Of a stretch of DNA of 64,000 nt, positions 45,168 through 48,304 are shown piece by piece. Numbering within the stretch: the stretch's first letter is position 1; the number at the start of each line of letters is the position of its first letter. The notes beneath the pieces were generated by a model. That model was not told where the DNA came from. It searched no databases and worked only from the letters and a program-made list of their open reading frames with translations. The position numbers and the translations under genes were made by a program. Origin of the DNA: Bacteroidia bacterium (GTDB taxonomy: Bacteria; Bacteroidota; Bacteroidia; Bacteroidales; Dysgonomonadaceae); assembly GCA_025999435.1 (NCBI GenBank), contig BNXH01000002.1, positions 1 to 64,000 on the forward strand, written 5' to 3'.

Positions 45168-45737
45168 TCAACTCTTCTTTTTCTTTACAGACCAGCCAAA
45201 GCCTCCGATCTTATTTCCAAGTTCGTAGTATTGTCCGTGTGAGTATGCGATAGGATTGGCGTCTTCGAGACTGAACTTGCCGGTTTCGGCATTAATATAT
45301 TTTTCATCCGCTTTTACATTCACCACGTCGGCGATAAACATGTCGTGCGACCCTAAACTGAGTATTTCTCTTACCCTGCATTCTATATTCAACGGCGATT
45401 CTTCAATGACGGGAGCCTGTACGATGGAGGCTTTTCCGGCAGTCAATCCCATATCCGCGAACTTATTGAAGTCTTTACCTGACTTTACACCGCACCAGTC
45501 GGTAGCATAAGCCAGCTCCTGTGTCGTAATATTGATCACAAACTCCATATTCCTTTTGATGATTTCGTACGAATACCTTTCGGGGCGGACAGAAATATAA
45601 CACATGGGCGGATTCGTACAGATGGTTCCCAACCAGCTAAGTGTTATTATATTGTATTCTTCCGCGGTGCAGCCACAACTAATCATCGCGGCGGGCAGCG
45701 GGTATATCAATGTTCCGGGTTTCCAGTCTTGTTTCAT
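45168..45737 (-). CDS. Flavin reductase-like FMN-binding protein
   Basis: The 189-residue protein (ATG 45735-45737, overlapping the pyrI stop in ATGA) has the flavin-reductase-like split-barrel pattern: GTLIYPLPAAMISCGCTAEE, LSWLGTICTNPPMCYISVRP, YEIIKRNMEFVINITTQ and NIECRVREILSLGSHDMFIA. Such proteins bind FMN and often accept NADPH. The gene sits last in a probable pyrB-pyrI operon; a link to pyrimidine synthesis is not evident. Confidence 0.88.
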   Translation of the reverse strand: MKQDWKPGTLIYPLPAAMISCGCTAEEYNIITLSWLGTICTNPPMCYISVRPERYSYEIIKRNMEFVINITTQELAYATDWCGVKSGKDFNKFADMGLTAGKASIVQAPVIEESPLNIECRVREILSLGSHDMFIADVVNVKADEKYINAETGKFSLEDANPIAYSHGQYYELGNKIGGFGWSVKKKKS

Positions 45738-46195
45738 TTCAGGATGACCTCGTCTTTCTTTATTTTGAGGTCGCAATAATGGCAGCGTAATTCTATGTTC
45801 TTGCAATCGATGACATTGAAGCGTGTTAGCATCGGTTCGTTGTTCGTTATGCATTTCGGATTGTTGCACTTTACGATACCCTTTATGACCTGAGGCAGTT
45901 CTACCCGTTTCTTCTCCACCACCCTGTAATCTTTGATAATATTCAGGACTACATTCGGCGCTATCAGGGCTATTTTGTTTATTTCATCCTCTTCGAAAAA
46001 CTTGTCGGCAATCTTTATAATACCCTTCGAATCCATTTTTTTGCTTTCAAGGTTGTTTCCGATTGTAATAGGATTGTCCAGTTTTTCCAATCCCAACAGA
46101 GATACGACCTTAAAGACGACATTGGTTGGTATATGATCTATTGCTGTGCCGTCGCACAAAGCGGCTACTTGCAGTTCTTTTCTTTGTTCTTTCAT
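45734..46195 (-). CDS. pyrI: Aspartate carbamoyltransferase regulatory chain
   Basis: Binds CTP or ATP and transmits allosteric control to PyrB. The 153-residue protein has the nucleotide-binding N-terminal part ([20 protein letters not shown]) and a zinc domain with [12 protein letters not shown] and [10 protein letters not shown], four Cys ligands. It overlaps pyrB by 4 bp and the flavin reductase gene by 4 bp. Confidence 0.95.
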
Positions 46196-47127
46196 GTTGT
46201 TGTCGTGTTAGAATCTACTTTTATATTCAACGAGTCGCAAATAACGGCCTGTCTTGTGAAAACACCATTCTTAGCCTGTTCGAAGTAGTAAGCTTTCGGG
46301 CTATCGTCCACGTCCTGTTGTATCTCGTTTACCCGTGGCAGCGGGTGCAATATTCTCAAATTATCTTTAGTATCTTCCAGCATGTCTTTCCTGAGAATGT
46401 ATACGTTCTTCACTTTCTCGTATTCCATCAGGTCTGTGAAACGCTCACGTTGCACCCGCGTCATATATAAAATGTCGGCATGATTGATTACCTCGGGCGA
46501 AAAATCAATATCCTCATCGTATTTTATCCCTCGTTTGTCGCAGAAGTTCTTGTAAGTATCCGGTAATCTCAGTTCTTCCGGCGCTACAAAGTGGAATGTA
46601 GGGTTAAAGTGTGACATGCCTATTATCAGTGAGTGTACCGTGCGTCCGTACTTGAGGTCGCCAACAATGGTGATAGTCAGGTTTTCCAGCGTGCCCTGCG
46701 TTTTATATATCGAATAAATATCCAACATGGTTTGTGTAGGGTGCTGGTTGGCTCCGTCTCCGGCATTGATAACCGGCACAGACGATACTTCCGAGGCATA
46801 GCGCGCGGCGCCTTCCAGGTGATGACGCATAATGATGATGTCAGAATAGTTGTTTACCATCAATATTGTATCTTTCAAGGTTTCGCCTTTGGAAGAACTG
46901 GTTGTGGCTGCATCGGAGAATCCTATGATCCGCCCTCCAAGCCTGTTTACGGCAGTTTCGAAACTCAGGCGTGTACGGGTTGAAGGTTCGAAAAAGAGAG
47001 TGGCGCAGACTTTACCCTCCAGTAATTTTCTGTTGGGCTGTTCATCGAACTGTTTTGCCAGATTCAGTATTCGCAGAATGTCCTCTTTCGAATAATCTGT
47101 AATTGAAACCAGACTTTTGTTACTCAT
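46192..47127 (-). CDS. pyrB: Aspartate carbamoyltransferase catalytic chain
   Basis: Condenses aspartate and carbamoyl phosphate in de novo pyrimidine synthesis. The 311-residue protein has the carbamoyl-phosphate loop [20 protein letters not shown], the [10 protein letters not shown] 80s loop, [20 protein letters not shown] and [11 protein letters not shown]. With PyrI downstream it should form the E. coli-type dodecamer. Its start overlaps a 54-codon leader frame that also covers a terminator-like hairpin. Confidence 0.96.
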
Positions 47128-47288
47128 ACGGTTATTATATTTTGAAAAGATGATTTTAGATCAAAAAAAATCCCCGAAAAAGAAAACTTCTTCGAGGGCA
47201 AAATATCTGATTGTCGCAATAAATCGTGAATAATAAACAGATCGTCGTAAGGCATATGGCTCATATTATGTAAGGATGCTCTTTTCAT
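47124..47288 (-). CDS. pyrBI leader peptide
   Basis: ATG 47286-47288 opens 54 codons ([18 protein letters not shown] at the start, [13 protein letters not shown] over the hairpin and U-tract) and stops in ATGA overlapping the pyrB start. This is the design of the E. coli pyrBI leader (44 codons), in which coupling of translation to UTP-limited transcription disrupts the attenuator. Homology of the peptide is not implied. Confidence 0.6.
47163..47198 (-). terminator. pyrBI attenuator hairpin
   Basis: Minus strand: CCCTCGAAGAAG (47187-47198), loop TTTT, CTTTTTCGGGG (47172-47182), then ATTTTTTTT. The stem lies inside the leader frame, about 45 bp before the pyrB start. Run of U residues just after the stem would respond to UTP. 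Confidence 0.75.
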
Positions 47289-47398
47289 AAAATTACGATC
47301 TTATTTCTTACAAAGATAAAAACTTTTTTCGAGATAGTTTGTATTATTTTTTTAGTAATTAGGGTAAATGCACGAAATAAATTTGGGTTTGCCCTACC

Positions 47399-48304
47399 CT
47401 ATTTCCCCAGCAATCCCCGTGTTACATTCCATCTGAACTGCAACAACTTCCAACCTTTCGACGGGGTTAACCTGATTGTATAAATAAGGAACAGGACAAT
47501 AGAGCCCAGCCATTTTTTACATTCCGACAGCATCCGGCCGCGATATGCTTTGGGCGAAACAGCTTTTGTTCGTATCCGTTCACTCTTTCCTATCGAGTAC
47601 GTCAGTTCCCTGAAGTGAGATTCCGATAATTTCTTTTCAGGGATATAGTGGTGAATACCCATTTGCGGAAGATAGTAAAAAACTTCATTTCCCCGGGTCA
47701 GCCTGTCGTACAGATCTTTCTCCTCAGCCCCGATAAGCCCTGTCCCTTTTCTTCCCAGCTCTACATTGAAAAGTCCGTATTTGTCAAACACTTCTTTCCT
47801 GAACGCGGAGTTTCCTCCTCCGGGATATTTGCCATTGCGGAACGGCTTCTCCTTATCCCCTTCGTACAATGCTCCCCCCAGAAGCTGCTCGGTATAGTGG
47901 GACAGCCATTGGGGCTTTTCTACCTCATAGACGGGAATAATAGGCCCTCCGCAAGCGCTGACATCAGGGTACGATTCAAAAAAACAGGATATACAGGAAA
48001 GGTAATGGTCGAACACGGTAGCATCGTCATCTACAAAAACGAGTATGTCCCCCCTACTCTCCTTTACTCCTCTGTTGCGGGCATAGGATAGCCCCTGATT
48101 GGTTTCCAGAAAGTAGTGGAATTCGACTTGCGGATAATCTGCCTGAAATTGCCTGCAAATACTCTCCGTACTATCTGTACTATTGTTGTTCACCATGACT
48201 ATCTCATAGTCTTGGTACGGAAAATCCTGTTCTGCAACACTCTTCAAAGCGTTGTACAGGTATTTTTCCCTGTTATATGTACAGAATATGACGGATAGTT
48301 TCAT
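47399..48304 (-). CDS. Family 2 glycosyltransferase
   Basis: The 301-residue GT-A enzyme starts KLSVIFCTYNREKYLYNALK and has the nucleotide/metal motif LVFVDDDATVFDHYL (DDD in place of DxD), then CGGPIIPVYEVEKPQWL and GYL-type acceptor helix with GLIGAEEKDLYDRLTRG. It probably adds a sugar to a surface glycan or lipid. It is followed by a 48-bp gap to the YfhO-type gene and lies in an envelope-sugar cluster. Confidence 0.85.
   Translation of the reverse strand: MKLSVIFCTYNREKYLYNALKSVAEQDFPYQDYEIVMVNNNSTDSTESICRQFQADYPQVEFHYFLETNQGLSYARNRGVKESRGDILVFVDDDATVFDHYLSCISCFFESYPDVSACGGPIIPVYEVEKPQWLSHYTEQLLGGALYEGDKEKPFRNGKYPGGGNSAFRKEVFDKYGLFNVELGRKGTGLIGAEEKDLYDRLTRGNEVFYYLPQMGIHHYIPEKKLSESHFRELTYSIGKSERIRTKAVSPKAYRGRMLSECKKWLGSIVLFLIYTIRLTPSKGWKLLQFRWNVTRGLLGK

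Follow-up and report, generated by a model that had tools for sequence, protein, structure and literature searches.

The pyrBI operon of Escherichia coli offers the closest described parallel to the locus analysed here. It responds to UTP, and slippage at the start site, itself UTP-dependent, provides a second control. Attenuators that depend on PyrR are the usual means by which Bacillus and its kin control pyr genes. The pause sites and the transcription-translation coupling of E. coli pyrBI are treated in PMC4824070, of which we rely on the sections available to us. According to those sections, the efficiency of the E. coli terminator is lowered from about 90% to less than 10%, with more than 27 nt needed for the maximum, and repression of the terminator is lost when translation is uncoupled. 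The same sections hold that a ribosome is unlikely to catch up with the polymerase within the first 100 bp of a gene unless there are pause sites, as in pyrBI.

Attenuation has been proposed in the phylum Bacteroidota for other genes. The accessible portions of two papers suggest leader-peptide attenuation in Flavobacterium psychrophilum, before amino-acid operons (PMC9723704), and describe small ORFs in long 5' UTRs of Bacteroides thetaiotaomicron, including that of BT_4401, as reminiscent of attenuation (PMC7366714). These cases share the phylum of ours but not the gene, pyrB: the two papers deal with BT_4401 and with amino-acid operons. A search of the open-access literature, with subscription papers and supplements outside its range, found no description of pyrB or pyrBI attenuation in Bacteroidota. 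In the accessible part of a NusG review, pyrB appears in the reference list; in that of a survey of premature terminators (PMC2965389), the string 'Bacteroid' is absent from the main text.

Here we describe an element upstream of pyrBI that is likely to be a ribosome-mediated transcription attenuator working like that of E. coli pyrBI. It lies on the minus strand of a 64-kb stretch of DNA, the whole of which we call the window, in a Dysgonomonas genome (G000; 2.2-Mb assembly, 51% complete). Reading the element as a pyrBI-type leader and attenuator is well supported by its anatomy (Table 1). A sequence-only reading of the window had noticed a 54-codon frame that crosses a hairpin and eight U and ends in ATGA at pyrB, and the coordinates confirm it. 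That reading contained neither the promoter box nor the U-rich patch listed in the table.

Table 1. Features of the pyrBI leader region of the window and what each assignment is based on.
Feature	Coordinates	Strand	Basis
Candidate promoter box TATCTTTG (TAnnTTTG), Bacteroidota-type -7	47311..47318	-	Sequence
Leader ORF, 54 codons (ATG start at 47288, TGA stop; 54 aa), through the hairpin to ATGA at pyrB	47124..47288	-	ORF, homologues and frame selection
U-rich patch ATCTGTTTATTATTC, 31-45 nt ahead of the stem; possible site of a UTP-sensitive pause	47228..47242	-	T fraction and shuffle control
Terminator-like hairpin, 11 bp, loop of 4	47172..47197	-	Fold and conservation in relatives
U8 tract, one A between hairpin and tract	47163..47170	-	Sequence and relatives
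ATGA shared by the leader stop and the pyrB start	47124..47127	-	Sequence
pyrB, aspartate carbamoyltransferase catalytic chain	46192..47127	-	PF02729 and PF00185
pyrI, aspartate carbamoyltransferase regulatory chain	45734..46195	-	PF01948 and PF02748

In the window, 91 nt separate the leader start from the stem and 44 nt separate the hairpin from pyrB. The box stands 121 nt before the stem, and this distance ranges from 114 to 135 nt across 29 loci of the Dysgonomonas group. TAnnTTTG is the sigma-A consensus in a Bacteroidota member, as given in the part of PMC9723704 available to us. We infer a transcription start at about 47304-47306, roughly 20 nt before the leader ATG; on inspection of the sequence, no U run directly follows this inferred site. 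The start of pyrI overlaps the stop of pyrB, again as ATGA (46192-46195), so leader, pyrB and pyrI form a chain with two ATGA overlaps.

The stability of the leader is concentrated in the hairpin. Folded alone, the hairpin (46 nt) reaches -15.0 kcal/mol (z -3.4), and none of 200 shuffles was as stable. The whole 183-nt leader of the window is no more stable than its shuffles (z -0.61), and for the part 5' of the hairpin (z +0.61) no competing antiterminator fold is predicted. Hairpins followed by a T tail occur at 77 sites on the two strands of the window. Nine of the 77 have an ORF of at least 100 aa no more than 125 nt downstream, and among these nine the pyrB site alone combines a TAnnTTTG-type box with a leader ORF.

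Among the 33 distinct loci closest by pyrB (identity at least 81%, from pyrB searches), 31 retain hairpin and U tract. L054 (82% identity) and L056 (81%) lack the hairpin and are scored as misses. Across these 31 loci, each folded separately to assign its pairs, stem pair 3 is UG in 19, UA in 11 and CG in one; pair 5 is GC in 29 and AU in two; pair 8 is AU in 15, GU in 14, GC in one and unpaired in one; and pair 11 is GC in 18, AU in four and unpaired in nine. Variation in the stem is thus pair-keeping, as judged from these predicted folds. The loci are related and hence not independent, so such counts overstate the evidence. Allowing up to three mismatches, the hairpin pattern was found in 20 of 25 genomes of the genus, always at pyrB. 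Sister genome G020 carries T7 rather than T8 after the hairpin, together with one stem mismatch, and its leader frame is broken because the U tract is one T shorter.

A survey of the order extended the comparison to 160 distinct pyrB upstream regions, identical upstream sequences being merged. A hairpin was accepted if it spanned at most 40 nt, folded at -9 kcal/mol or lower, ended 4-125 nt before pyrB and was followed by at least five T in eight positions. The promoter box was sought at 90-140 nt, and an ATG was sought after a box at 100 nt or more. By manual decision we also kept L042 and seven loci of the Dysgonomonas group whose spacers are longer, and the criteria miss some long hairpins (L091, 42 nt; L148, 41 nt). 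The Dysgonomonas group itself, 31 loci, was chosen by eye, with L188 added, and takes in a few loci, such as L022 and L048, from sister genera in the same family. Eighty regions had no hairpin, 20 no box and two no ATG (L047, L138); 58 had all three. Symbiothrix/termite-gut type loci, L058-L065 among them, have no hairpin before pyrB by these criteria and may have lost it. Within Dysgonomonas, four loci (L041, L042, L019 and L046, the last from Dysgonomonas mossii) have spacers of 218-533 nt between hairpin and pyrB, against 44 nt in the window, and those of L046 and L019 carry repeated GTCACTTTT-like words.

What the survey finds conserved is anatomy. The frame opened by the first ATG comes within 21 nt of the stem, or passes it, in 54 of the 58 loci, where mononucleotide shuffles, which preserve single-base composition alone, lead one to expect 10.7. 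Outside the Dysgonomonas group, it does so in 28 of 29 loci (6.2 expected). Of the two alternative frames, one is open in 23 of these 58 loci and the other in 11. In three of the four failures (L022, L042, L053) another ATG fits, and in the fourth (L056) the hairpin is probably false; one success, L191, is weak, with an 11-codon frame that begins 44 nt before the stem. Start and stem lie 92 nt apart on average in the 54 fitting loci (sd 8.9), a distance partly limited by the search rule. Stems and leader peptides are mostly unrelated between families, which means that the anatomy is conserved more than the sequence. Comparison of leader and stem in other Bacteroidales, the check proposed in the sequence-only reading, thus found hairpin, position and frame conserved (31/33 for the closest loci, 54/58 for the surveyed loci with all three parts).

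The leader frame behaves like a coding sequence. For eight pairs of related leaders, the in-frame pN/pS is 0.43, versus 0.86 and 1.37 in the shifted frames; the pairs were picked by the analyst and span at most 27 codons, and a nine-pair version in which one pair is identical gives 0.42. Changes at codon positions 1, 2 and 3 number 38, 26 and 53 over the eight pairs, highest at the third. By these comparisons the frame is under purifying selection, as expected if it is translated and maintained.

Most leaders stop close to the stem. Under an automated first-ATG rule, 19 of the 29 Dysgonomonas-group leaders end 6-20 nt before it, 18 of them with 24-27 codons and one, L057, with 33 (25 from its second ATG). 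Three further leaders stop inside the hairpin, four beyond it and three early, the rule having picked an ATG in these last three that does not fit. Over all 58 leaders, 26 stop before the stem, 15 inside, 13 beyond and four early. Given the distances in the available sections of PMC4824070, stops 6-20 nt before the stem, inside it or beyond it would all be within reach of the ribosome.

The window's leader runs farther and meets pyrB. The earlier proposal that overlap couples the leader to pyrB translation holds in part: the ATGA is present in the window, but only five of 58 leaders share one with pyrB (L001, L029 and the mutually similar L082, L102 and L127). Since these five represent three lineages by eye, ATGA coupling, real in the window as far as its sequence goes, is an accessory trait overall. 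Four homologues match the whole 54-aa ORF at 70-91% identity (54, 53, 53 and 86 aa), and three of the four are one codon shorter, in frame. They may have kept the overlap too, to judge from protein sequence alone, because they end in V or A, which is compatible with GNA-TGA. On this evidence, neither run-through nor ATGA coupling is the rule; both are traits of the clade of the window species and of some other clades.

These findings bear on whether the hairpin is an ordinary terminator, one that serves the upstream gene or is constitutive and partial, beside which the leader ORF would be incidental. In the window a gene on the same strand (47399-48304) does end upstream, as one does in many relatives. 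There are also six Proteiniphilum-type loci (L074, L076, L079, L090, L177, L179) with no box before the hairpin, in which the upstream gene (with a ..LPWHELFDVDLEV-like end) stops 12-20 nt before the stem, as expected of a plain terminator. In the window, however, the box sits between the upstream gene and the hairpin, and the openness of the leader frame and the selection on it would have no place in such an account. The nearest upstream ORF of at least 80 aa varies by species, and of the 28 loci that have one, eight carry it on the opposite strand; a glycosyltransferase is found there in the window only (1 of 31 loci, from mechanically called ORFs), and we rejected its terminator as a candidate on that ground. 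Because the upstream ORF differs between species, the element belongs to pyrB and not to the upstream gene. We consider an ordinary terminator quite improbable.

A U-rich patch precedes the stem of the attenuator that we propose. The 29 leaders of the Dysgonomonas group average a T fraction of 0.54 at its position; for the first 300 nt of pyrB the value is 0.25. Twenty-four of these leaders have an 8-mer with at least six T at 12-50 nt ahead of the stem, where shuffles of the same leaders predict 10.0. An equally T-rich patch upstream of the promoter is present in six of 29 loci of the group and seven of 29 in other families. The signal before the stem is weaker in those other families (8 of 29; 2.1 expected). 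A pause hairpin, an accessory and not a defining part of the enteric design with which the element had been equated, is missing from the group: no leader structure fell below z -1.5 in any of 26 leaders (12 shuffles each). Outside the group, leader structure fell below the same value in six of 28 leaders, again with 12 shuffles each.

One other genus of Bacteroidales has a covarying hairpin of five pairs, GRCTC/GAGYC, before the terminator. It occurs in eight distinct sequences (L128, L206, L131, L207, L029, L208, L134, L209), with G-C replacing A-U in two and G-U in one, and a U run follows it in most. In four measured loci it ends 37-40 nt before the stem. From this comparison L210 was dropped, as it has no pyrB start; L208 is shortened by a wrong start and is otherwise like L096.

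A rival account is control by a PyrR-like protein or a riboswitch, in which the leader RNA and not the ribosome would decide the outcome. The prevalence of PyrR attenuators in Bacillus speaks for it. Against it, none of 61 genomes passes the curated cut-off of the PyrR model (NCBIfam NF003549), a count in which the window genome is only 51% complete; 40 genomes have weak matches, and six of 14 control genomes score above the same cut-off. The leader region of the window has no Rfam match at gathering scores, and upstream of the hairpin there is no stable fold. We rejected PyrR control on the first ground and a riboswitch or other Rfam family on the second. Either mechanism would also leave the open leader frame unexplained, and we regard both as highly improbable.

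Direct action of the ribosome, timed by the speed of the polymerase, is favoured because of the spacing, the U-rich patch, the lack of leader structure and the lack of a PyrR above the cut-off. Transcription would begin upstream of the leader ATG, and a ribosome would translate the leader behind RNA polymerase. When UTP is plentiful, the polymerase would pass the U-rich stretch fast and arrive at the hairpin and U tract ahead of the ribosome, so that the hairpin would fold and most transcripts would terminate. When UTP is scarce, the polymerase would pause in the U-rich stretch while the ribosome closes in. Having come to the leader's end, at or within the stem, the ribosome would mask the 5' arm, and the polymerase would continue into pyrBI. 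In the window species the leader runs to pyrB, so one ribosome might also re-initiate there. The model requires the candidate pause because the stem starts just 91 nt after the ATG, inside the limit given in the available part of PMC4824070. The attenuator is probably UTP-sensing, going by gene context, the U-rich patch and the E. coli-like spacing.

The same ribosome-mediated device could instead respond to another signal, be it an amino acid, the rate of translation or a ligand causing nascent-peptide arrest. Selection on the leader as protein-coding sequence would suit such a signal, and so would the modest U-rich patches outside the Dysgonomonas group. FIPEDNLFI-like residues, common to part of the genus and kept in several species, are what an arrest peptide might have, and a pure timing device would not need them. 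Between families, by contrast, the peptides differ almost wholly while the start-to-stem distance and the stop position are kept. Residues 2-30 show no dominant amino acid, the most frequent being Ile in the Dysgonomonas group (12.8%) and Arg elsewhere (10.2%). We rejected an amino-acid attenuator of the trp/his type, there being no codon run and, in the Dysgonomonas group, no alternative hairpins. The gene product, moreover, serves pyrimidine synthesis. A signal other than UTP is unlikely on this evidence, and a UTP-sensing attenuator is the reading we carry forward.

The element may reach well beyond this genus. Bacteroidota mostly lack classic Shine-Dalgarno sites. We see about even chances that a UTP-timed, ribosome-coupled attenuator, with some 90 nt from start to terminator, is widespread in Bacteroidales lineages without PyrR and is either ancient or repeatedly evolved. 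If that is true, it would come in three grades, with the leader stopping before the stem, stopping in it or reading through towards pyrB, and RNA polymerase and the leading ribosome would be tightly coupled in Bacteroidota. The element would then serve as a native reporter for transcription-translation coupling in the phylum and would also report how pyrimidine supply sets pyrBI without PyrR. Short ORFs before pyrB would deserve annotation as leader peptides.

Measured against known systems, the element is a probable attenuator of an established type, which the searchable papers do not describe from this phylum, and the common form in the genus has a shorter leader. Equating it with the enteric attenuator, as the sequence-only reading did, comes close for the window: E. 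coli pyrBI (PyrL; NC_000913.3, L195) is the same operon, with a leader that likewise runs through the hairpin and a U8 tract to pyrB. Its start-to-stem distance is 88 nt (91 nt in the window) and its stem ends 30 nt before pyrB (44 nt in the window); its leader ends 3 nt before the pyrB start, where the window has the ATGA overlap. The equation does not extend to the common Dysgonomonas form, in which most leaders stop before the stem, there is no pause hairpin and the promoter is of the Bacteroidota type. The upstream hairpin of the E. coli leader, which we take to be its pause hairpin, ends 38 nt before the stem and is followed by a U-rich run, a position matched at 37-40 nt in the other Bacteroidales genus. 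PyrR-dependent attenuators also attenuate pyr genes but need PyrR. The 19 of 29 Dysgonomonas-group leaders that stop before the stem resemble E. coli rph-pyrE, where translation ends shortly before an intrinsic terminator, and the six Proteiniphilum-type loci resemble it in having an upstream gene that ends just before the hairpin. The element differs from rph-pyrE in the gene that it precedes, and in the window its frame crosses the hairpin, as in E. coli pyrBI.
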